64,000 nt of DNA from Nakamurella sp. A5-74. Lineage in GTDB: Bacteria; Actinomycetota; Actinomycetes; Mycobacteriales; Nakamurellaceae. The stretch spans positions 372,001-436,000 of the forward strand of contig NZ_CP159218.1 in NCBI RefSeq assembly GCF_040438885.1. The letters run 5' to 3'. The notes under the pieces were generated by a model. The model made no database searches. It saw only the letters and a list, made by a program, of their open reading frames with translations, and was not told the DNA's origin. Position numbers and translations under genes: made by a program. Shown here in pieces: positions 12,182 through 59,549 of this stretch (its first letter is position 1; every line of letters begins with the position of its first letter).

Positions 12182-13888
12182 TCATGACGGGCCTCCAGTC
12201 CCGTCCCGGATGTCGGGTGGCGGTTCACCGAGGAGTTCCGGGAGGGTCCGGGTGCGTCGTCGGGCGCGGGTCTTCTTCGCGCGGAGAGCGGCGGCGCCGT
12301 CACCGAGGTCAGCTTCACCGAGGGCGACGGCCCACGGGTCGGACAAGTGCCGGATGGCATGCCAGTCGCGGAGCAGGCGGACGTTCATCCCAGCGAACGC
12401 GAACGCACACAGCAGGGTGTTGCGGACAACGCCGAAGACGCGGGTGAAGCCCTTGCCGATGTCGAGGCGGTGGTTCTTCAGTTCGGCGTTAGTCGATTCG
12501 ATGGCGGACCGGCGATAGTAGGCGGCTGCCCAGTCGGTGGTGCCCCAGGGTTGCGGCATCCGTTCGCGGGGTGACTGGTCGGGTGTGATCGTGACGGTTT
12601 TGCCGCACGCGCACGGCGTGGACTGTGAGCAGTGGGTGGTGGGGCGGGTGTGCGCGAGGCGCAGCGACTGGGGGACGTTGGGGCAGCGGACCTGCCCGGC
12701 AAGCGCCGGTCCCTTGAGACGCTGGTACCCGTCGGGGTCGCGTTTGGTGAGCGGGGTGAACGCGTAGGCGCGGCGCCGGTCGAAGTCGGCCTGCGCGGCC
12801 TCGGCCTCGGCGGTGGTGGCGTACGCGCCGGGCGGGGTGAGGTTCCGCAGCAGCCGGGGCAACGCTTCGGTGAACAGGGTGCCGTCGATCCAGATGGTGC
12901 CGGGGATCGGTCCGGGCCGTTGACCGCGCTGGTTTGGGTGCAGGTCGCCCCACACGTCGACGTTTCTGGCCCACATGGGGTAGGCGAACGTTTCAGGGAG
13001 GCAGAAGTTGTAGCCCCGGTCGACGCACAGGTCGGTGGTGGTGGTTCCGGCGGCGGTCATGCCGTCGATGGTGCGGACGGCGGCTTCGCCACGGTGTGAT
13101 CCGGCGGGGGTCAGCGTCATGCCGGTGACGAGGTGCGGTACGACCGTGCCGCCGATGGTGGGGATCTGGGTTGCAAGGTGAAGCTCGAAGCCGACGTAAA
13201 TGTCGCCGGGTCGTCCGTTGTGACCGGAGCGATAACCGTCGCGGGCCTCGGGGTCGCAGGAGTTTTGGGGGCGTCCGTCGTCATCCCAGATCGGCCAGCC
13301 CGGTTCGTTGACCGGCTTCGATGGGCCGAGGTTGGTCCCGTCGGGGATCTCGGTTCCGGCTGTCGGCAGGTCCTTCTTGTTGGCCCAGGATCGGCGACGT
13401 GCCCACGCCTCGAGGTCGGTTCCGTCGATGGCAGCGGAGCCAGTGAGGTTGTAGTTGGCGGGCAGGGACGCGGCGAGGAGTCGGTCGGCGAACTGCTGCA
13501 CGGTGAGACGGTCGTCGCTGCCGGGGACGCGCAGCCCGCCGTCATCAAGTTGGGCGGCGATCTTGGCGAAGGCGTGCCACAGCATCGGGTAGGTGACGTC
13601 GGCGCCGACACCGAGATCGGCTCGTTGTGACGGACCAAGGTTCCGCAGAGTGCCCACGATGTCGGTCATCACCATCGTCCTGGAGCCGGTGACAGCGTGC
13701 AGCGTCATCCCTACGAGCAGCGCGCGGGCGGTGAACGTGCGTGGCCGTCCGGTGGTCGCGTTGAGGTTGTGTTCCACGATCGGGAGCAGCCCGGAGCGGT
13801 CGATGACGGCGACGGCACGGCGGTACGCGGCGGTGGGGGACAGGTACTTCCAGACGGCGCGGTGGGCCTGCACGAGGGGTTCAGTCAT
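12182..13888 (-). CDS. DDE-type transposase-like protein
   Basis: 568 residues. It resembles actinobacterial DDE transposases: a first Asp in AAIDGTDLEAW, a second in TTDLCVDRGYNF, and a C-terminal SAIESTNAELKNHRLD segment that fits the catalytic Glu helix. A cysteine cluster (QVRCPNVP, then STPCACGKTV) may bind zinc. The ATG at 13888 lies inside the upstream recombinase-like gene (8-nt overlap), so the two are translated together. I could not delimit inverted repeats around the pair, so whether it is an autonomous insertion sequence, and of which family, is open. Confidence 0.75.
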   Translation of the reverse strand: MTEPLVQAHRAVWKYLSPTAAYRRAVAVIDRSGLLPIVEHNLNATTGRPRTFTARALLVGMTLHAVTGSRTMVMTDIVGTLRNLGPSQRADLGVGADVTYPMLWHAFAKIAAQLDDGGLRVPGSDDRLTVQQFADRLLAASLPANYNLTGSAAIDGTDLEAWARRRSWANKKDLPTAGTEIPDGTNLGPSKPVNEPGWPIWDDDGRPQNSCDPEARDGYRSGHNGRPGDIYVGFELHLATQIPTIGGTVVPHLVTGMTLTPAGSHRGEAAVRTIDGMTAAGTTTTDLCVDRGYNFCLPETFAYPMWARNVDVWGDLHPNQRGQRPGPIPGTIWIDGTLFTEALPRLLRNLTPPGAYATTAEAEAAQADFDRRRAYAFTPLTKRDPDGYQRLKGPALAGQVRCPNVPQSLRLAHTRPTTHCSQSTPCACGKTVTITPDQSPRERMPQPWGTTDWAAAYYRRSAIESTNAELKNHRLDIGKGFTRVFGVVRNTLLCAFAFAGMNVRLLRDWHAIRHLSDPWAVALGEADLGDGAAALRAKKTRARRRTRTLPELLGEPPPDIRDGTGGPS

Positions 13889-14792
13889 GGTTGCCCGCCA
13901 GTTGCGGCCACGACTTTTCGGGTTCCCGCACAGTCAGGTAGGGGAGTAGTTCGCCGAGCCGTGATCCGGTTGACCATCCGGCGGCGCGCATGAACTCCGA
14001 GACCGGGGTGCCGGAGTTGAGAACGTGGATCATCCAGGTGGTGCGCAGTCGGTGGACGCTTAGGTTCGGCATGTCCGGGGTACGGACGATCCTCGACAGC
14101 AGGACGTTGAGCCGGTTCCGGGATGTGCCGAGCGGCCCGACCAGCGGCCCGTCCGGGTACTGGTCGGCCAACTTCAGCAGTTCGGGTGCCCACCGGGCGC
14201 GGACGGGCACGTCGCGGCCAAGCTCGCCGGGGGTACGAACAACAACGGCCCGGTGTTCGCGGCGAACGTCGGCGGCGGTGACGTGGAGCAGATCGACCGG
14301 AGTGAGACCGGCGCCGAGACCGAGTGTGAACAGCGTTTTGGCGCTGCGCTGCCGCTGCCCGTCGGGTTGCTGCCCCGCGATCTCCCACAGCCGATCGATC
14401 TCGGTGTTGCTGTACGGGGCGCGCATGGTGTTGCGTGCCAACGTTTCCGGTTTCGGTTCCCACGGGGCCTTCTTCGTCACGGCGCGTGCAACGGTGCGGA
14501 GCATTGCCCGTCGGGTTGATCGTGCACGGTCGGTGTACTGCGGCATGCCGACGGCGGTGTACCGGTCAACCGTGGCCGGGGAGAACACCGACTCGATGTC
14601 AAGATCGATGCCCTCGCGTTGCGCCCATCCAACAAGCCCGGTCGCAACGCTCATCGCACGGATGTAGGTGCTCAGCGCGCGAAACCCGGTCCGGGTCACG
14701 ACCTCACGGACCAACGGCCCAATCTGTTGCCACGTCTCGGGGTCGACCCCGTTGGGTCGGTACTGCGCGACGACCTCCTCCGGGGTGGTCAC
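13881..14792 (-). CDS. Tyrosine recombinase-like protein, probably degenerate
   Basis: 303 residues from the GTG at 14792 (GAGGTG 5 nt upstream). The N-terminal half looks like a core-binding helical domain. The C-terminal half has the tyrosine-recombinase layout: TLGLGAGLTPVDLLHVTAAD where TGLRxSEL is expected (the first catalytic Arg is replaced by Thr), then LSVHRLRTTWMIHVLNSG (the HxLR box, intact), AGWST, and a Tyr near LLPYLTV. The lost Arg suggests it may bind DNA without classical strand exchange. It overlaps the downstream transposase gene. Confidence 0.75.
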   Translation of the reverse strand: MTTPEEVVAQYRPNGVDPETWQQIGPLVREVVTRTGFRALSTYIRAMSVATGLVGWAQREGIDLDIESVFSPATVDRYTAVGMPQYTDRARSTRRAMLRTVARAVTKKAPWEPKPETLARNTMRAPYSNTEIDRLWEIAGQQPDGQRQRSAKTLFTLGLGAGLTPVDLLHVTAADVRREHRAVVVRTPGELGRDVPVRARWAPELLKLADQYPDGPLVGPLGTSRNRLNVLLSRIVRTPDMPNLSVHRLRTTWMIHVLNSGTPVSEFMRAAGWSTGSRLGELLPYLTVREPEKSWPQLAGNHD

Positions 14793-14843
14793 AAGGACAC
14801 CTCGGATGTGGATCGGACGCACGGCTTAGACCCCTTTGGCAGA

Positions 14844-19882: not shown

Positions 19883-22422
19883 TGCTATTCGCTATCCATA
19901 CCTATTACGCCATCCTCATGAAGCTTCTAGCTGCGGAACTGGTTTCCATGCAACGCGAATCCTTGATCGAGTCGTTCATCGACAAACTCGCCGTCGCTGA
20001 CGACGAAACGACTAGGGCTATGATGGGAGCCGTTGAATCAGGTGAGATCTTTTCGCACTACATGCTGCAAAACTTTCTCGAAGCCGACTTCTTCGGCTGG
20101 TACTTGAAGCTTTGGGACGCGGACCTGGCCGACAGTGTTCGTCACATGGCTCGCTCGATGGCGACATTTGAGCCTGCCACCGGTGTCCTGGACCCCGCAC
20201 CCACGAGAGATCTTCTCAAGAAGTTGTACCAGTATTTGGTGCCCAAGGAGATTCGTCACGATCTCGGCGAGTATTACACGCCGGACTGGCTAGTCGAACT
20301 GACCCTAAACAACGCCGGTTACGACGGGCAGAAAGCAAGAGTTCTCGACCCTGCGTGCGGAACAGGCAGTTTCCTGATCCAGGTAGTCAACCGGCGTGTC
20401 GCTAAACGTAACGCAACCCCAGCGTCCGAACGAGAACCTATCGCCGATCTCCTCGCAGATGTAATAGGTTTCGAGCTTAATCCGCTCGCTGTGATCGCAG
20501 CCCGCACCAACTATCTGCTGGCGTTGGGTGATCAAGTCCGCGACCTCGATCGGTTCGAGATCCCTGTTTACCTGTGCGACTCGGTCCTCGCGCCAACCAC
20601 GACGGACCTCGGTCTACTGGGTGAAACCTACACTCTGAGCACAAGTGTCGGAACGTTCGAGATCCCAGCATCGCTTCTATCCGACGGACTGCTGCCGACT
20701 GCCACAGCGCTGCTCGAAGACGCTTTGAACGGTGACTACGAACCTTCAGAGTTTCGCAAGCTGATCAAACGGCAACTGGCAGGTCTCAGCGAGCCAGAAC
20801 GAGATCTTCTCGTGGCCCTGTTCGTGCAGATCCAAAAACTGAAGGTCGAAGGCCGAGATGGCGTGTGGCCCCGAATTATCCGAAACGCGTTCGCGCCCTT
20901 ACTTAGCGGAGTTTTTGACTTTGTCGTGGGCAACCCCCCTTGGGTGAACTGGCAGTCCCTGTCCCTGTCCTACAGGAAGGCAACTCAATCGCTGTGGACC
21001 CAGTACGGTCTCTTCACCCTAACTGGCGCCCAGGCCCGAATGGGAGGAGGCAAGAAAGACTTGGCAGCCCTGTTCACCTACCGAGCATGTGACGCCTACC
21101 TGCGATCTGGCGGCACCCTCGGATTTGTTGTAACCCAGAGCCTCCTGAAGGGCAAGAAGGCCAGCGAAGGGTTCAGGAGATTCAAGATCGGATCGGACGG
21201 CGCGAATCTGTCCGTCAAGGTTGTTCACGATCTCTCAGCGTTGCAACCCTTCGAAGGCGCTAGCACCAAGACAGTCGTCATGGTCATCCGAAAGGGAAAC
21301 CCAACCAAGTACCCCGTCGAGTACGTCACCTGGACCCGCACCACTCGCCGATCCCGTCTTGCGATGTCCGGCACACTTTCAGAAGTCGAAGGTGGATGCG
21401 ATTTAGAAACCGGCGTAGCGAACCCTGTGAATGCGGCAGACCCACTCGGGCCTTGGTTCACCTCCACCCCGGAGGTCTTCAAAGCGCTCACCCCAGCCAT
21501 CGGCAAGTCCGCTTACAAAGCGTTCATCGGCGTATGCACTTGGGCGAACGGAGTCTTCTGGGTTGCTCCTTCCGGGTCAACCAGCTCAGGAATGCTCCGT
21601 GTGGAAAACAGAAGCGATGTGGCAAAGGACCAAGCGCATGCCCCTTTGAGGGTTCAAGCAGTCGTGGAGCCCGATCTTGTCTACCCGTTGATCAGATCGC
21701 GGGATATCAAGCGCTGGAAGGCGACACCAAGTGCGTACATCGTCATACCGCAGGACGCCGCTGCGAAGACCGGCATACCGGAGTCTTTGATGCGGACCGA
21801 ACACCCGCTGACCTACAAGTATCTCAAGAAGTTTGAAGGCCTGCTCGAACAGCGGTCTGGGATGCGTCGCTATTTCTCGTTGGAAGACGGCGATCCCTTC
21901 TACTCTGTGTACAACTTCCAGACTGCCAGTTTGTCAAAGCATCGAGTGGTTTGGCGGCAAATGGTACCCCGCATCAGTGCGGCGGTAGTCACGGCGTCCG
22001 ATGATGAGTTCTTGGGTGACAAACTCCCCCAAACTCAGCATGTGGTTTCCGTGGTTTCGGTCGAGTCTGAAGACGAGGCTCACTACTTCTGCGCGATGAT
22101 GAACAGTGCGGTGGCATCTGCCATCTCGATGGCCTACGGAACAGGGAAGAGCTTTGGCCTTCCCTCAGTGATGGAAAATCTTGCAATTCCTCGGTTCGAC
22201 CCTGACTTGAGCGATCATAGGCAGCTGGTCAACATTGCTCGGGGCGCGGCTGCAGCGGCCTCGGCAGGCCATGACACGGCGAAGTATGATGAAGACCTGG
22301 ATGAGCTGGCCCCTGCCATATTCGGACTCTCTGAGGTTGAAGCTGAAGTGCTACGGGAGCGGGTTGCGAAACTTCCGACGGAAGCGGACCCGGATTTGTT
22401 GGAGGCGGTCGAACTTGAATAG
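19883..22422 (+). pseudogene. 3' part of restriction-methylase gene: adenine methyltransferase and specificity region
   Basis: The first internal ATG is at 19918, but the frame is open from the IS junction and encodes LLFAIHTYYAILMKLLAAE, matching conserved sequence of large N6-adenine methylases. Motif I is VLDPACGTGSF (near 20341) and motif IV VVGNPPWVNW (near 20925). The remaining 450 residues would hold the target-recognition region. Joined with 17925-18771 it makes 1128 codons, the architecture of a type IIG/Eco57I-like restriction-modification enzyme. If translated from 19918, the methylase might be made without the nuclease. Confidence 0.88.
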
Positions 22423-33005: not shown

Positions 33006-34349
33006 TTAATCGACGTCGACGGACACGCGGGTTCGCGCCACGCAAGTTTGGTTCTTGACGATGTAGCACTCCACGTAGTGATGTCCTGAGTACAAGGTGT
33101 TCTCCACTCGCTCGTGATGACCCTGGTCGGGCAAAATTTCGCCACGCAGTTGACCGCGCGATACCGCTTCGGGTCCGTTGTTGCGAACCTTCCAGTACAC
33201 GTCGAAAGGCGCCGTGACGGTGGTGCTCACCATCTTGAACACAAGCTCTCGTTGCTTGGTGACGTGGCCCCCGCGTGCACGTAGGCGGCGTCGGTCTCCC
33301 CGGTTCGCCGCCCGAGGTGGCAGCACTTCGCAGATGGCCTTCACCGTTTCAGTTTCATTGACTCTGAATCTGTTCTCGATGAATTCCTCGTTGGGTGCGG
33401 AGTTGAGAGTCTTGGCTGTCTTCGCCGTAGCAGAGGGTGGCGCTTTCAGCTCGGATGGAAATGCCAAGCCGAAGATTTGCTGCCATGCGTTGATGCTTTC
33501 GTGTGGCGAAGTACGGGTGTAGGCGTAGGCGATGCGGTCGTTTAGTTCGTTGATATCTTTGCGGAACTCCTCGAACTGCCGGTTGGTCCACCGTCTGTTG
33601 AAGTCGGTGTCGGGGCAACTGGGATCCTCTACGTCTGGTTTGGAGGTCTGGCCGTTGAGCCAGCGGGCAAGATCCGCGACCAGGTTGTAGAGCGTAGTGG
33701 GAACGTCCTCGTAGCAGTCCAGCGCAGCGGCGATGGGGTAGACCCGTTCCCCAAGAAGAACGGTCAGTAGGACGGACTTGATATCGAACTCTTCGAGATG
33801 AGTGCGTAGATACTTGAGCAGGCGTAGAACTTTACGGAGATTCTTGTTGGTGATATCGTCTGCGGTCTGGATCCAGTGGGTCAGACCCACGGGGTTCGCG
33901 GCCTCAAAGGTGTTGTCGGTTCGGTAGACGATGTAACCGCTCCCGTCAGGCATCTCCACATAAGGCACAAGATCGACTTGACAGAAGTTCGCGTATGTGA
34001 TGCGAACGCACCGGTTCTTACGTTCGCTCATTGGCCCGTAGGTCGGGTGGTTCTCAACGGCTTTCCACACGGCGTCGGCATACTTGTGTGGATCGTTGTT
34101 CCACTCTGGCTGTTCCGCGATCTGGATCAGGATGTCCGCATCGAAGACCTCTCCGCTGGGCGGTCGGATGATGGTTCGATGCGTCCATGACCCCTGACGA
34201 ATCGTATCGATCATCAGGTCATCGAGCTCATCAGATGCGTACAGCGCCTTCTCGATGGCGGCTACGTGGTCACTCAGTTCCTCGAGCCGTCCTTTGTTCA
34301 GGTTGACGTGATCTCGCAGCAGTTGATCAAAATGCATGTCCAGGTTCAC
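33006..34349 (-). CDS. CBASS CD-NTase (SMODS-type nucleotidyltransferase with AGS-C-like tail)
   Basis: 447 residues from the GTG at 34349, whose GTGA overlaps the Cap5 stop; an ATG lies four codons later. The nucleotidyltransferase site is complete: IRQGSWTHRT (G53-S54), FDADILIQI (D70, D72) and QVDLVPYVE (D126). The C-terminal 130 residues (VYWKVRNNGPEAVSRGQLRG, then SGHHYVECYIV) match the AGS-C sensor-type domain found in these enzymes. It would make a cyclic oligonucleotide on phage infection that activates the neighbouring SAVED effector. The product is not deducible here. Confidence 0.9.
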   Translation of the reverse strand: MNLDMHFDQLLRDHVNLNKGRLEELSDHVAAIEKALYASDELDDLMIDTIRQGSWTHRTIIRPPSGEVFDADILIQIAEQPEWNNDPHKYADAVWKAVENHPTYGPMSERKNRCVRITYANFCQVDLVPYVEMPDGSGYIVYRTDNTFEAANPVGLTHWIQTADDITNKNLRKVLRLLKYLRTHLEEFDIKSVLLTVLLGERVYPIAAALDCYEDVPTTLYNLVADLARWLNGQTSKPDVEDPSCPDTDFNRRWTNRQFEEFRKDINELNDRIAYAYTRTSPHESINAWQQIFGLAFPSELKAPPSATAKTAKTLNSAPNEEFIENRFRVNETETVKAICEVLPPRAANRGDRRRLRARGGHVTKQRELVFKMVSTTVTAPFDVYWKVRNNGPEAVSRGQLRGEILPDQGHHERVENTLYSGHHYVECYIVKNQTCVARTRVSVDVD

Positions 34350-35509
34350 AAGTGTCCAATCTCGAAGGCAAGGCGGTAGGTGCCATCGTCCATGCGGTCG
34401 TACAGCTTCAGCCCTGGGTGGGCCTCGTGTACGAACACGCGCCCGAACTCCACTGCGGCAGCGATCGGTACCGCTGCCAGGACGTGGAACCAGCGCACCC
34501 GCTTGTGGCCTTCGTGCTCCAGACGAGCAAGAAGCTGTCTGCAGGCCTCCTGAAATCGCTGAAGTGTCTCGACACTCGAGATGGTGTCCGGACCAGGAGT
34601 GGCACCATCCACGGTTATCTCGAACCGAGGCAAGGACAGAAGCTCGTGTGGCACTTCGTCGGGGTTGATGGTTCCACTGACGTTGAGAAGCAGAACCGCT
34701 TCGAGAGCGGCGGCACCTTGGACCGGGACGTTCACCCGGAACTTCTCGAGAGTTGCCCGCTGCGGCCAGCTCCACGAATCCGTCGAACGGTGCCGCTGAT
34801 AGACATCGACTGGAACGTTGTCGTCAAGACACGACCCCAAGTAGACGAGGAGCGGGATTCGAGCCCAAGCGAAGACACTGATGTGGGTGGTCTCCCCCTC
34901 GGCTACGGAGGCCATAAGCCCGGCGAGCTGCTTGTCGATCATAGCCCGCGAAGCCCGGTAGTAATCCTCCGTGGGAACCTCCTCGCCCAGGATGTTCCGA
35001 AGGTCGATCTCGAGGGTGTTCCGGGTTGCGGGAGCGAACCTGGCGAACCGACCTGCGCCCGCGATCACGGCACGCGCCACGCCCTCTCGGTCGAGTTCCA
35101 TCGCCCGCCCCCGCAATCGACCGACCATCCGAATCGGTGTTGTCGCCCTATCCCGACCAACTTCCGTGGCGAGCCGCACGCGGTCTTCATGCTCTTGCTT
35201 CATCTCCAACAGCTGCTCGACGGAGAACGCGTCACGGGCGCCGGGCTTGTCGATCTCGTCGTGTTCGTGGTCGCACAGCAACATGAGGTTGTCAGCTGTG
35301 TCCCGCGCGTCCTCATCGAGCTCGGACCCAACTCCGCGCGGGGACCGGGGGGAGTTGGTCTGCCCCACGATGTGCGCGGCCTCGCCGAAGCGTCGTTCGA
35401 CGTAGGACATCGAACCCTCGAGCAGATACCTGTTGCAGATCTCGCAACGCCCACCCGCTCGCACCCAGAGCTTCAACCGCTCATCTGGGTCGATATTTCG
35501 TCGCGCCAT
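34346..35509 (-). CDS. CBASS effector Cap5-like: HNH nuclease fused to SAVED domain
   Basis: 387 residues from the ATG at 35509 (GGAGGG 7 nt upstream). Residues 20-90 are an HNH domain: RCEICNRYLL, EAAHIVGQ (H46) and NLMLLCDHEHDEID. The C-terminal half (about 190-387) is SAVED-like: THISVFAWARIPLLVYLGSC, VLLLNVSGTI and HVLAAVPIAAAVEFGRVF, the last being characteristic. SAVED binds the cyclic nucleotide and HNH then degrades DNA. It is the first gene of the operon, before the CD-NTase. No Cap2/Cap3 genes are nearby, so this looks like a type I layout. Confidence 0.9.
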   Translation of the reverse strand: MARRNIDPDERLKLWVRAGGRCEICNRYLLEGSMSYVERRFGEAAHIVGQTNSPRSPRGVGSELDEDARDTADNLMLLCDHEHDEIDKPGARDAFSVEQLLEMKQEHEDRVRLATEVGRDRATTPIRMVGRLRGRAMELDREGVARAVIAGAGRFARFAPATRNTLEIDLRNILGEEVPTEDYYRASRAMIDKQLAGLMASVAEGETTHISVFAWARIPLLVYLGSCLDDNVPVDVYQRHRSTDSWSWPQRATLEKFRVNVPVQGAAALEAVLLLNVSGTINPDEVPHELLSLPRFEITVDGATPGPDTISSVETLQRFQEACRQLLARLEHEGHKRVRWFHVLAAVPIAAAVEFGRVFVHEAHPGLKLYDRMDDGTYRLAFEIGHL

Positions 35510-55349: not shown

Positions 55350-55709
55350 TCAGTGGCTGGCGTCGAACGCGTCGAGAACAGCGCCCGGAATGCGACCGCG
55401 TTCCGAGACGGAGTGGTTGTTCTTCTTCGCCCAGTTCCGGATTGCGGTGAGCTGCTCCTTGGAACGCCTTCCGCCGGCGGAGGAGGCGACGGTCGTCCGG
55501 CTGACCGGTGCACCGCGCGTCGTCAACCGTTGTGCCGCATCGACGTAGGGCGCCAGGATCTCGTTGAAGGTGTCCAGTTCGGCCTCGGTGAGATCGATGG
55601 CGTACGGCGTTCCGGAGACGACGAATTCGACCGTCCCGCCATGCGAGTCGCTGGGAATCTCGTCGCCGGAAAGGTCGGACGTCAGGTACTCGACGATCTG
55701 TTGTGCCAC
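55350..55709 (-). CDS. lsr2: Lsr2 nucleoid-associated protein (chromosomal copy)
   Basis: 119 residues from the GTG at 55709 (AAAGGG upstream). It has the N-terminal oligomerisation domain (AQQIVEYLTSDLSGDEIPSD) and the C-terminal DNA-binding core with WAKKNNHSVSERGRI (RGR hook). It silences AT-rich foreign DNA. Its position outside the island and monocistronic layout suggest it is the resident gene; compare the island copy at 26047. Confidence 0.94.
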   Translation of the reverse strand: MAQQIVEYLTSDLSGDEIPSDSHGGTVEFVVSGTPYAIDLTEAELDTFNEILAPYVDAAQRLTTRGAPVSRTTVASSAGGRRSKEQLTAIRNWAKKNNHSVSERGRIPGAVLDAFDASH

Positions 55710-55832
55710 TGTGTGTGCCCTTTCGATGGTTCCCCGTGGATGCATTGTGCCATCCTGCGGTCGATATCGAGTGATCGACGCCGGCGTCGTGGAAATCACC
55801 CGGCCAGGACACCCGGGGGAGTGGCGGCGCGA

Positions 55833-57509
55833 TCAGCCGACTCGGGCCTGGTAGTGCTCCAACACCTGGGCGGCGCTCAACTGCACGGTGTAGATCGCGG
55901 CATATTGCAACTGCCCGGTGTAGTAGTTCGGACCGGTGTAGGCGGCGCCGGTCGCACTGGGCCAGCCGTTGAGGTTGCCGCAGCCGATCTTCCACCACCC
56001 GCTGTAGGACTGCCCGGCGAACTGGTTGGCGTTCGCGCCGACCAGCACACCGTCGAGATAGAGCCGCATTCCGGCGGGGCCGAGGGTGGCGATCGCCTGG
56101 TGCCATTGGTTGTTCGCCACGGAGGTCGGTGACGACACGACGACGACGCCGGGGTTGTAGACGCCGAAGACGAGCCTGCCCTGAGGATCGATGTACAACT
56201 GCCGATCGTAGCTGGCGTCCGCGATGCCGGTGCGGCTGGAACTGGAGCCGATCAGCTTGCCGTTGCCGGCAGTGCTGGTGCGGAACCAGATCTCGGTGGA
56301 GAACGTGTTCGGGGCGGCTGCCGCCGCGGTGGCGGCTCCGGTCGCCAAGCACTGGCTCGTTCCGTTGAAGGTGACCGAGGCGGCAGGGGTATCACGGATG
56401 CAGCCGACATTCCCCGTCTGGACGGTGGAGCTGAGGGGGTACTCCCCGGCGTTCCCGCCGGCAAGATTCGCCTCGCTCGTCGACCCACTGGTTCCCATGG
56501 CGTACCCGGCGACCAGACCGGCGGTGCCGGTCTCGGCAGCCCGGCAGGTGAACCAGGTGCGGCTGCCGGCGGTGTCCGTCGAGTTGGTGATCCTGGCTGC
56601 GAAGGCGCTATGGGTGGGGACCACCAGCAGCGCCGCGATGAGGGCCAGCACGCCGATGGTGGCCGCCGGGACTGCGATCCGGTACCGGTGGGCGCGCGTC
56701 GCACGGGGATTGTCGTGCTGGAACTCCCTGAGGCAGAACAGGAACGGCAGGCTGCACAGGGCGATCAGGCCGATCAACCACCACGTCGACAGGTGCAGCG
56801 CCGGGTCGAATTGGTACTTGCCTGCTGTGTCGGTGACAGCGGTGGAGACAGATCCGAGCTGTCCGTTGACGAGGTCGGCCGACGTCCCGCCACGCGCCGT
56901 GACCCGCATCGGCAGGATGCCGGTACTGACAACGGAGGCGGTGATGCCCTCGTTCGCGGGGAGGTAGCCAACCAGTTGGACGCCGGTCCACGGGCGCAGC
57001 AGGAGCGAGGCGACTGCGACGGTGAGCGTGCCGCCCATCACCCTGCCGACGTACCGGTAGTCCGCGGCGAACAGGAATCGGGTGATCAGGAAGGTCAGCA
57101 GCGCGCCGATCGCCACGATCGGCAGCGCGCGGGCCACCCAGCCCAGGGTCCACAAGCGCAGCCAGGCAACACCTTCGACCTGGTCCGGAGTCACGGTCCA
57201 GGGGTCGACCGCGCCGTTCAGGTCGCCCTGCGTGTGATAGTTCCCATCGGTCACCTCTACGACCCGGTGGGTGTAACTGTGTGTAGCACCGGTCGGCGTG
57301 AAGGTGATGATGTCGCCGACCTCGGCGTCACCCGGCAAGGTCAGGACCAGGGTTCCCACCGGCGCGGCCTCGGCCATCGAGGGTGTCTCGACCGCCTGGA
57401 ACCGACCGCCTGCCAGGAGGTAACCGACCAGAACTATGAGCAGCAGAGCGCACAGGCCCCCCGCGAGCACGACGAGGGTTCGTCGGTCGCGGGGGGCGGT
57501 GGAGTACAC
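55833..57509 (-). CDS. SipW-like signal peptidase fused to a LamG-like domain with internal signal
   Basis: 558 residues. After one N-terminal helix (11-32) comes an S26 signal peptidase of the archaeal/SipW type: Ser in ETPSMAE (S44), YTHRVVEV (H81 instead of Lys) and HTQGDLN (D96). Further helices follow at about 128-148, 159-175, 242-262 and 279-298. The last helix ends THSAFAARITNSTDTAGS, then a secreted-type domain (about 320-558) with LamG/concanavalin features: FSTEIWFRTST, WHQAIATLG and MRLYLDGVLVG. The neighbouring TasA-like protein carries the same motif, so this enzyme may cleave its own C-terminal half free. Confidence 0.85.
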   Translation of the reverse strand: MYSTAPRDRRTLVVLAGGLCALLLIVLVGYLLAGGRFQAVETPSMAEAAPVGTLVLTLPGDAEVGDIITFTPTGATHSYTHRVVEVTDGNYHTQGDLNGAVDPWTVTPDQVEGVAWLRLWTLGWVARALPIVAIGALLTFLITRFLFAADYRYVGRVMGGTLTVAVASLLLRPWTGVQLVGYLPANEGITASVVSTGILPMRVTARGGTSADLVNGQLGSVSTAVTDTAGKYQFDPALHLSTWWLIGLIALCSLPFLFCLREFQHDNPRATRAHRYRIAVPAATIGVLALIAALLVVPTHSAFAARITNSTDTAGSRTWFTCRAAETGTAGLVAGYAMGTSGSTSEANLAGGNAGEYPLSSTVQTGNVGCIRDTPAASVTFNGTSQCLATGAATAAAAAPNTFSTEIWFRTSTAGNGKLIGSSSSRTGIADASYDRQLYIDPQGRLVFGVYNPGVVVVSSPTSVANNQWHQAIATLGPAGMRLYLDGVLVGANANQFAGQSYSGWWKIGCGNLNGWPSATGAAYTGPNYYTGQLQYAAIYTVQLSAAQVLEHYQARVG

Positions 57510-57582
57510 GGGTCCTCAGCTGGTTGTCGAGGTACGGCGGGCAGGTCTCAGGTGGTCGGAACACTGCGAGAAGGATCCCCCG

Positions 57583-57609
57583 TCCGGCCGGTCGCGCGGA
57601 CCGGCCGGA
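57583..57609 (-). terminator. Hairpin between TasA-like and signal peptidase genes
   Basis: TCCGGCCGGTC-GCGCG-GACCGGCCGGA is a perfect 11-bp stem, 14 nt after the TasA-like stop and about 75 nt before the peptidase start. With no T-run it may act as a partial terminator or RNA stabiliser, giving more TasA-like protein than peptidase. Confidence 0.6.
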
Positions 57610-57622
57610 GGGGAGACTGTCA

Positions 57623-58273
57623 TCAGGCCGAGAAGCTCCAGACGAGCGGCTGGGAAGCGCGCAGGCCCTGGTAGGTGTTGCCGGCGGAGGAGTCCAACGT
57701 CACCGCGAACGAGAACGGCACCGCGATCGTGGGTGCGACAGCGCCGATACCGGCGAGCGCCGTCAGGTTGATCGCGCCACCGGTGTTGAGGCTGGTCAGG
57801 GTTCCGGAGAAGACGGTGGTGGTTCCGGACTTGATCACGATGTTGATCTTCGAACACAGGTCGACCGCAGTTCCGTTCACCGTGCCGTTGTTCGCCTGGG
57901 TACAAGCGCCGGGGGTCAGCGTGAACGCGGTGGCGTTGACGGTGCCAGTGTTCTTGATGGTGATGTTCGTGGTGATGGTCTGACCCGGGAACATCGCGGT
58001 CGAGCCGCCGTACTTGTTGATCGTCGCGCAGGTGGCGGCGTTGGTGGACACCGTCGTGGAGTCGGTGCTGTTGCACAACACGCTGCCGTCGGAGTTCGAC
58101 TCCTGCATGGTGAGGTAGCCGCTGGCCGCGGTGTCGGTCGAGTTGGTGATCGAGGCCACGAACGCCGACATCGTCGGACTGAAGGACAGCGCGAGGATCG
58201 CCGAGGCGGCGATGCCGGTCAGGAGCACGAACAGGCCCTTGCGGCGTGAAGTCGGGGAAGCATGGTTGGGCAT
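57623..58273 (-). CDS. SipW-dependent, TasA/camelysin-like secreted protein
   Basis: 216 residues. A basic start (TSRRKGLF), one hydrophobic signal helix (about 14-33) and MSAFVASITNSTDTAASGYL form a SipW-type signal. The mature part is beta-rich with NITIKNTGTVNATAFTLTP, as in TasA/CalY family fibre proteins. It should be processed by the SipW-like peptidase encoded downstream and may form surface fibres or biofilm matrix. Confidence 0.78.
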   Translation of the reverse strand: MPNHASPTSRRKGLFVLLTGIAASAILALSFSPTMSAFVASITNSTDTAASGYLTMQESNSDGSVLCNSTDSTTVSTNAATCATINKYGGSTAMFPGQTITTNITIKNTGTVNATAFTLTPGACTQANNGTVNGTAVDLCSKINIVIKSGTTTVFSGTLTSLNTGGAINLTALAGIGAVAPTIAVPFSFAVTLDSSAGNTYQGLRASQPLVWSFSA

Positions 58274-58520
58274 GGTTTGTTACTTTCTGTGACTGGCGGG
58301 GTAACTGCGAGGGAACTGACGGTCCCCGGATTGGGACCATTCGTGTTGGATGATGACAATTCGTGCACTCGTCGATGAGTATCAGGGTCAGACCGTCGTT
58401 TGTCCAGGTGAGATTGTCACCCGATCGGAGGGAGCAGCTCACGTATGGCCCGCATCTGGTGTTCGCAGCGCGGACCGTCCCCCGAACAGTTCGGGGCCGG
58501 GCCTGTGGTGGGGTGGTGCT

Positions 58521-59549
58521 GTGGTCATCGCAACCGGAGTGCTGCTGCTCGGGTTGACGTGCACCGTGTGGGGTCTGGTCGGCGTTCGCCGCGACCCGCG
58601 CCGGCTGCGGCCGTCGGTCGCGATCCTGGCCGGTGCGCTCGTCACCGTGATCGGTCTGGCTGCGGTGGTGTCCGCCTCGGGGCTGCTCCCGCGGACGCTC
58701 ACCGTTGCCCTGGTGGTCATCGGTGGGGTGGTCGCCGTCGCCTACCCGGTGCTCACCGTCCTGCTCGTGCTCAACGGCGTGACGATGATCCGCCGGGAGC
58801 GACCGACACCGGCCCATCTGCTCAGCCTGACGCTCGGACTCGGGATGACGGCTCTGCCCGTGCTGTCCCTGATCGCGATCCACCTGCGCGACACCCGATC
58901 GCCGGCAGTGGCGGTCCTGGGCTGGCTGGTGCTCGTCGTCGGCAGCGTGCTGGGATACCTGGCGTTCGCTTTCGGCGCCTTCCTGCTCGGCACCTTCCTG
59001 TATCGACGGATCGGCCGCAGGCTGCCGGCGCGCTACATCGTGGTGCTCGGCGCGGGATTGCGCGGCCGCCAGGTCTCACCACTGCTGGCCAGACGGCTGG
59101 ACAGGGCCGCCGCGGAGTTCCGTCGCCAGGGCGGTGCCGGGACCATCGTCCCCAGCGGCGGCCGGGGCGACGACGAGGAACGGACCGAGGCGTCCGCGAT
59201 GGCCGACTACCTGCGGTCCGAGCACGGGGTGCCGGCAGCGCAGATCGTGCCCGAGGACCGCGCGCGCACCACCAGGGAGAACCTGACGTTCTCCCGAGCA
59301 CTGTTCACCGCGCCGGACGCGAGGGCGATCGTCGTCACCAGCGGGTACCACGTGCTGCGCGCTGCGGTGCTGACGCGGGAATTGCGCATGCGGGCCAGGG
59401 TGGTCGGCTGCCGGACTGTCGGGTACTACCTGCCCAGTGCCTACCTGCGTGAGTTCGCCGCGGTGTTGTGGGCCAATCGCGTGATGAACGTGATCCTGGC
59501 GAGTGCGTTCACCGCGTTGACCGTCAGCGTCATCACCCTGTGGCGGTGA
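58521..59549 (+). CDS. DUF218/YdcF-like membrane protein
   Basis: 342 residues from a GTG at 58521 (start uncertain; the frame is open to 58350). Four or five membrane helices precede a DUF218 domain (about 170-320): YIVVLGAGLRG, RLDRAAAEFRRQGGAGTIVP and SGGRGDDE, EASAMADYLRSEHGVPAAQI and IVVTSGYHVLRA. YdcF/SanA-like proteins act in envelope integrity or bind nucleotide cofactors; the exact role is unknown. Divergent from the TasA-like gene. Confidence 0.85.
   Translation: MVIATGVLLLGLTCTVWGLVGVRRDPRRLRPSVAILAGALVTVIGLAAVVSASGLLPRTLTVALVVIGGVVAVAYPVLTVLLVLNGVTMIRRERPTPAHLLSLTLGLGMTALPVLSLIAIHLRDTRSPAVAVLGWLVLVVGSVLGYLAFAFGAFLLGTFLYRRIGRRLPARYIVVLGAGLRGRQVSPLLARRLDRAAAEFRRQGGAGTIVPSGGRGDDEERTEASAMADYLRSEHGVPAAQIVPEDRARTTRENLTFSRALFTAPDARAIVVTSGYHVLRAAVLTRELRMRARVVGCRTVGYYLPSAYLREFAAVLWANRVMNVILASAFTALTVSVITLWR

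Follow-up and report, generated by a model that had tools for sequence, protein, structure and literature searches.

The TasA-like gene and the peptidase-LamG fusion gene

The window analysed here, a stretch of 64,000 nucleotides from Nakamurella sp. A5-74 (coordinates 372001-436000 of the single-contig, 4.75 Mb genome; positions below are those of the window), harbors on its minus strand a gene for a TasA-like protein (P0002) and a gene for a protein in which a SipW-like signal peptidase is joined to a LamG domain (P0001). Both open reading frames (ORFs) were present where an earlier note on this DNA had placed them, and 113 bases separate them. P0002 (57623-58273, 216 amino acids) is the first gene of the cassette described below. 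P0001 (55833-57509, 558 amino acids) starts with GTG, with GAGG upstream, and consists of the SipW-like peptidase, an extra membrane region, an internal SipW-type signal and LamG.

P0002 begins with a SipW-type signal peptide (residues 1-36, 58166-58273, minus strand), for which the sequence predicts a cut at S36|A37 with T34 at P3, S36 at P1 and F38 at P2'. Its assignment was based on an AlphaFold2 (AF2) model, on structure comparison and on a profile. With the model (predicted local distance difference test, pLDDT, 73.8), the top match of Foldseek was the TasA fibre 8aur (E 5e-5), the sole match under 0.001. VIA aligned 141 residues to 8aur (Z 9.4, root mean square deviation 3.0), followed by 5of2 (8.1), 5of1_B (8.0), the archaeal bundling pilus 7ueg (7.8, tied) and FimA (6.8). 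As modelled, P0002 has the TasA fold, which supports the TasA-like neighbour described in the earlier note; the sequence quoted there after the signal helix, SAFVASITNSTDTAAS, is exact from S36 onwards. P0002 was the only match of a TasA-like profile in its own genome. It did not match Pfam Peptidase_M73 (camelysin), which the partner protein of a related fusion locus, L072, passes (26.6 vs 22.5).

The peptidase domain of P0001 (residues 1-150, 57060-57509, minus strand) was assigned to the endoplasmic reticulum (ER)-type signal peptidases from TIGR02228, a profile match to SEC11C and invariant residues. S44, H81, R82, G95, D96, N98 and D102, comprising the Ser/His pair and the GDxN...D stretch of ER-type enzymes, were invariant in 21/21 aligned domains, all of which were hit by TIGR02228 and by the model for Bacillus SipW with E values up to 0.01; S44, H81, D96, N98 and D102 were also invariant among 20 aligned fusions. 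A search of solved structures with P0001 alone (phmmer) gave nothing up to E 1, and the alignment of peptidases was needed. The closest solved matches of the 21-member profile were SEC11C (7p2q, E 3e-18) and SEC11A (7p2p, E 9.9e-18), and P-type enzymes matched weakly (E 0.04 and above). The profile aligns G95-D96-x-N98-x3-D102 to GDNNAVDD of SEC11A and to the equivalent stretch of SEC11C, and the Asp of SEC11A aligned to D102 is one that we take to be Asp122. Of the active-site residues named earlier, S44 (57378-57380) and H81 (57267-57269) hold, while D96 (57222-57224) is invariant but, judging from this alignment, the catalytic Asp is more likely D102 (57204-57206). By its sequence, the domain presumably cleaves signal peptides.

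In the AF2 model of P0001 (mean pLDDT 67, predicted template modelling score 0.45) helices span residues 8-32, 122-146, 151-170, 242-265 and 279-307. The order of peptidase, membrane helix, quoted sequence and LamG given in the earlier note was confirmed, with SAFAARITNSTDTAGS exact from S301 onwards. The single helix that it placed after the peptidase corresponds to the last one; helices 3 and 4 and the ectodomain of about 60 residues between them, which stand between the peptidase's own two helices and the last helix, had been left out. This ectodomain (residues 177-238, 56796-56981, minus strand) is modelled as strands, mostly with low confidence, and is conserved, with the stretch VSTGILPMRV or VSTGLLPIRV, in ten peptidases of one subclade (subclade A, see below), fused and free-standing. 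No Pfam family scored over its cut-off in residues 177-294, and a longer piece (residues 156-229) reached 12.7 bits with HVO_1552_C (cut-off 27). One could guess that the subclade-A ectodomain holds the TasA-like subunit.

The internal SipW-type signal is formed by helix 5 (residues 279-301, 56607-56675, minus strand), which follows a basic cytoplasmic loop and ends with T-H-S. Past the predicted cut at S301|A302 lies the segment AFAARITNSTDTAGS (residues 302-316, 56562-56606), with F303 at P2'. From the helices and charges, the N-terminus would lie inside, and S44 and everything after helix 5 outside. Self-cleavage as first proposed depended on the motif lying at the outer face of the membrane, and this predicted topology puts the site on the side of S44. 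The C-terminal part (residues 396-549, 55863-56324, minus strand) is a LamG/concanavalin-like jellyroll, which scored 55.2 bits with PF13385 (cut-off 27.6) and had jellyroll structural matches with a best Z of 17.8. Its matches to clostridial neurotoxin lectin domains were taken as reflecting the common jellyroll only. The fold-search lists for the fusion were filled by the LamG part and say nothing on the peptidase part.

Fused and split relatives

Searches with P0001 gave some match in 14 of 17 genomes of the genus. Apart from the own genome, fusions matching over both halves were found in G002 (two), G007 and G014; those of G001 and G006 (L058, L072) belong to the other subclade. The wider searches matched 116 of 298 genomes in the order and, when a different fusion served as query, 44 of 296 in the class, many of them with LamG only. 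A close-relative scan of genome contigs with P0001 alone confirmed no relative. Loci were regions picked by hand from the match lists of the fusion queries, together with 53 named loci obtained via a subclade-A peptide pattern. Three regions fetched as fusion candidates from their match ranges (L070, L143, L150) were dropped. Also dropped, before the tree was built, were 18 of 30 Curtobacterium-like loci, the duplicates L157, L169 and L187 and the cut or doubled peptidases L189, L201 and L202.

Among the resulting 83 peptidase domains, 33 are fused to LamG, 34 have a neighbouring LamG and 16 are without LamG nearby, where "split" in the tree denotes any same-strand LamG ORF within 2.5 kb; as the loci were fetched mainly with fusion queries, 33/83 is not a prevalence. 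Well supported branches of the tree force at least five changes of the fused label, by fusion or by fission, and parsimony counts nine, on 150 columns with a bootstrap that had not settled. Eight fusions belong to subclade A (the window, L054-L057, Sinomonas L185, Actinomycetospora L190 and L193) and 25 to subclade B (L058-L069, L071, L072, L129 and L131-L139, with two in L065), whose aligned rows have neither the ectodomain nor the two helices that flank it.

A TasA-like gene upstream was automatically paired with 25 of the 33 fusions. Three-gene cassettes of tasA-like, sipW-like and lamG genes occur in Curtobacterium, Actinokineospora, Frondihabitans, Rathayibacter, Microlunatus and others; a few loci, among them L192, L195 and L200, show no LamG, and L075, L077 and L198 have the order tasA-lamG-sipW. 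In 43 of 49 sipW-then-lamG pairs, counted without thinning Curtobacterium, the sipW stop and a lamG start overlap by exactly 4 bp; the six pairs without this overlap (L084, L124-L128) are not of subclade A. Homologues with the two halves as separate genes, which the earlier note had suggested looking for, were thus found, and their LamG proteins begin with a SipW-type signal peptide of their own, as in L151 (TRSAFSAKVTNSGNTAATATYFTC) compared with the window (THSAFAARITNSTDTAGSRTWFTC). These sequences give good support to the reading of P0001 as two cassette genes, sipW-like and lamG, fused in frame, and to the correspondence of its fifth helix to the signal peptide of the separate LamG proteins. 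An assembly error or a lost stop codon was ruled out by the homologous fusions in many genomes.

Two further peptidases carry other cargo behind an internal SipW-type signal: in L142 (2484-4835) three bacterial immunoglobulin domains, and in L140 (4298-5353) a short tail of no known family. Joining cargo to a SipW-like peptidase is therefore not limited to LamG. Eighteen large LamG ORFs of 700-2000 amino acids (L070, L073, L085-L093, L143, L150) have ordinary signals and no peptidase in the fetched stretch. By eye, such large secreted LamG proteins (L073, L086, L088-L090, L092, and in the own genome too) lie beside glycosyltransferase- or envelope-like genes.

Probable cleavage of the internal signal, and the shared segment

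TasA has an aromatic residue at P2' and is cut by SipW; aromatic P2' was found in none of 143 verified LepB-cleaved proteins and slows LepB, and P3-P4' of the TasA site are the residues crucial for blocking LepB (PMC10269814). Both predicted sites of the window, THS|AFAARITNSTDTAGS at the fusion junction and TMS|AFVASITNSTDTAAS in P0002, combine small P3 and P1 residues (T299/S301 and T34/S36) with an aromatic P2' (F303 and F38) after a hydrophobic stretch. In 32 of 33 fusions the last helix has the pattern small-x-small-x-aromatic close to its end, compared with 11.9 expected from shuffled sequences; of the separate LamG ORFs, which were not thinned, 47 of 52 have it (15.9 expected). The correspondence of the helix to N-terminal signal peptides weighs more than this shuffle test.

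In the own genome, TIGR02228 found the fusion plus a second frame. This second frame scores over the cut-off of PF10502, as does a further one, and both carry the Lys-containing FVKRV stretch of P-type enzymes. A second SipW-type enzyme was not found in the own genome by the searches made, so that the fusion is the sole candidate found if the site needs a SipW-type enzyme. The split homologues, the site kept by eye in 31 of 33 fusions, the predicted topology and the lack of a second SipW-type enzyme among the matches in the genome give good support to the core idea of the earlier note, a peptidase fused to its own substrate. Taken together, these results suggest an in-frame fusion whose peptidase cuts the internal signal, in cis or in trans, and so releases LamG, an account that as a whole we consider rather probable. 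Self-release of LamG, by either route, appears likely from the sequences. Once inserted in the membrane, with S44, H81 and D102 at the outer face, the peptidase domain would cut S301|A302 of its own or a neighbouring chain and release a LamG protein with the fresh N-terminus AFAARITNSTDTAGS. The same peptidase would also cut S36|A37 of the TasA-like protein.

It had been proposed that the stretch ITNSTDTA, shared by both proteins, marks them as substrates of one enzyme. Both are still likely substrates of one enzyme, but the stretch is a less likely recognition motif, as it sits at P6'-P13', beyond P3-P4'; the SipW-type mark would be small-x-small|x-aromatic. Since ITNSTDTA lies past the residues that signal peptidases are known to read, a strand of fibre partners is more likely. 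TasA polymerises via an N-terminal donor strand (residues 28-38), and TapA, whose N-terminus is similar to that of TasA, may give the first one (PMC9674648). Residues 44-57 of TapA secreted alone lead to a proper biofilm, and TapA and SipW are of similarly low abundance, with overlapping stop and start codons (PMC10151520). In P0002 the candidate donor strand is formed by residues 37-51 (58121-58165, minus strand), of which 38-43 are modelled as a strand with low confidence, and which resemble the LamG segment of the same locus. In 68 loci, among them those of related Curtobacterium, both partners have equivalent segments. Over P3'-P15', TasA-like and LamG proteins of the same locus show a similarity of 6.14 of 13 vs 4.08 between loci (n=44; subclade A 7.04 vs 5.61, subclade B 4.83 vs 3.65), and over the helix region 3.07 of 17 vs 2.79 (n=44); the anchored statistics of this comparison and of the 68 loci are partly circular, the sites having been picked by P3, P1, P2' and T/S/N richness. 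Left out of the comparison were L068, L069 and L134 (mis-anchored, by eye) and L203 (a near copy of L188). The shared segment is thus more likely to be a TasA-type donor strand than a motif recognised by the peptidase, and P0002 may form donor-strand fibres. That LamG is a TapA-like partner that starts or caps the fibre is a reasoned guess and the weakest step. In that case each peptidase would come with a single LamG partner, made where the fibre subunits are set free. A tentative extension, which we think rather doubtful, is a one-shot fibre starter: with one nucleator per peptidase, self-cleavage would free both the donor strand and the enzyme, the latter for processing TasA-like subunits on the spot, and tie initiation 1:1 to enzyme maturation. 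If so, the fact that the fusion was gained (or lost) several times would point to selection on the nucleator-to-enzyme ratio.

Several observations weigh against release by self-cleavage and against the fibre role built on it. Cleavage, secretion and the fibre role of these proteins are all inferred. The region past helix 5 (residues 295-376) has pLDDT below 50, and the geometry of self-cleavage is not readable from the model. The window domain falls under the cut-off of TIGR02228 (domain alone 37.7 bits, E 1.8e-9, cut-off 51.85; whole P0001 E 2.4e-8) and far under that of the Bacillus SipW equivalog NF046067 (22.1 bits vs 190). It is thus not filed as a SipW ortholog; the name "SipW-like" reflects its active site and the profile match, and not membership under a curated model. 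TIGR04088, the curated model of SipW-type signals (cut-off 19), matched neither P0002 nor the fusion junction; the L072 partner, at 10.6 bits, is also under its cut-off. By eye, two fusions lack the site, L067 with Leu and L138 with Met, where the pattern matches elsewhere, and 5 of 52 separate LamG ORFs are without it. The pattern also occurs at the first and second membrane helices (17/33, 9.2 expected; 10/33, 4.8 expected); as it is not specific to the last helix, the shuffle test alone is weaker than it looks. It was absent from all 18 large secreted LamG proteins, a weak control with 0.7 expected and with the tested stretch placed by a different rule than in the others. The same-locus likeness extends past the segment that follows the cut (P16'-P30' 1.52 vs 1.08 of 15), within subclade A its ratio there (1.54 vs 1.10, 1.40) exceeds the 1.26 of P3'-P15', and the comparison ignores phylogenetic relatedness. 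Finally, we know of no kinship between LamG and TapA.

Some of these points favor an uncut junction, with helix 5 as a permanent anchor and LamG as a lectin module by which the membrane-bound peptidase is displayed or placed, for instance at the wall or at fibres. The fusion keeps LamG on the enzyme, the cut at the junction is predicted, and two of the 33 fusions are without an aromatic P2'. An anchor alone, however, gives no plain reason to conserve P3, P1 and P2'. Yet 31 of 33 fusions retain the site, although their cytoplasmic linkers ahead of the last helix differ in both length and sequence. Where the two halves are separate genes, this helix stands at the N-terminus of LamG as a signal peptide. 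We consider this alternative unlikely.

Release of LamG by housekeeping P-type signal peptidases instead of the fused domain is also improbable, and a little more so. The genome has two P-type enzymes, and small P3 and P1 residues suit them. Moreover, much of the LepB block is attributed to the Trp at P2 of TasA (PMC10269814). The window sites have His300 and Met35 at P2, so that aromatic P2' alone may not exclude P-type enzymes. Against this, the absence of aromatic P2' from the LepB substrates and its effect on LepB speak for another enzyme, indirectly, as these are E. coli data.

Gene conversion or chance could account for ITNSTDTA without functional meaning, and only 2 of the 24 bases underneath it differ between the two genes. 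In our judgement shared codons are expected at this G+C, 44 of 66 bases are identical over the surrounding segment, and equivalent segments recur in both partners across loci; we consider this explanation very unlikely. We give hardly any credence to an internal translation start that yields LamG separately and leaves the long protein of little importance: the separate genes mostly overlap by 4 bp, and the 35 codons ahead of the last helix contain ATG, GTG or TTG in 22 of 33 fused genes (2/33 with a Shine-Dalgarno-like stretch), but the window gene, like 11 of the 33 fusions with the window included, has none of them there, so that its LamG is not made separately from a start in that stretch.

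Neighbouring genes and known systems

On the same strand, 33 bases past the fusion gene, lies a gene for an Lsr2-like nucleoid protein (55350-55799, minus strand; PF11774, PF23359), and directly upstream of the TasA-like gene a divergent membrane-protein gene with DUF218 (58350-59549, plus strand; 9.7e-30). Elsewhere in the window, a region of about 12000-36000 near a tRNA-Leu has a lower G+C (down to 0.57) and harbors a DDE transposase (12182-13888), a phage integrase match below cut-off (13881-14822), an N6/Eco57I methylase (19918-22422) and a SMODS-AGS_C nucleotidyltransferase (33006-34775). The SMODS-AGS_C domain pair is presumably similar to that of cyclic oligonucleotide-based antiphage signalling systems (CBASS-like), and the region is perhaps a defence island.

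If read correctly, P0001 is a self-releasing secreted protein, and its cassette a TasA-type fibre cassette of actinobacteria with another accessory protein, LamG. The fusion would lend itself well to a test of whether ER-type signal peptidases can cut in cis and can use an internal helix, and the natural split and fused forms in relatives are ready-made test pairs. In the open-licence literature of PubMed Central, of which partial texts were covered, no description of such a peptidase-substrate fusion was found.

The locus resembles tapA-sipW-tasA of Bacillus subtilis in that an ER-type signal peptidase adjoins a TasA-fold fibre protein with an aromatic P2', and in that the accessory protein has a TasA-like N-terminal segment; the likeness of LamG to TapA consists of operon membership and this N-terminal segment only. 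Stop and start codons overlap in both systems, between tapA and sipW in B. subtilis (PMC10151520) and between sipW and lamG in the relatives of the window. Unlike in B. subtilis, the accessory protein has a LamG jellyroll and in the window is joined to the peptidase, with a signal of its own in front of it; the order is tasA-sipW-lamG, and two additional helices plus an ectodomain are present in the window peptidase. SEC11A and SEC11C are each a separate catalytic subunit in a complex and are not known to be fused to cargo. They are the closest solved structures to the window peptidase by profile and have a Ser-His-Asp triad (PMC13385932). In the sipW-bsaABCRSD operon of Clostridium perfringens, SipW is needed for secretion and polymerisation of the fibre protein and further putative secreted proteins are encoded, but the partial text describes no peptidase-substrate fusion (PMC7395162). 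A precedent for cleavage within a polytopic protein is iRhom2, which the signal peptidase complex cuts as a non-canonical substrate (PMC7618786); there, enzyme and substrate are separate chains, whereas in P0001 they are joined in one.

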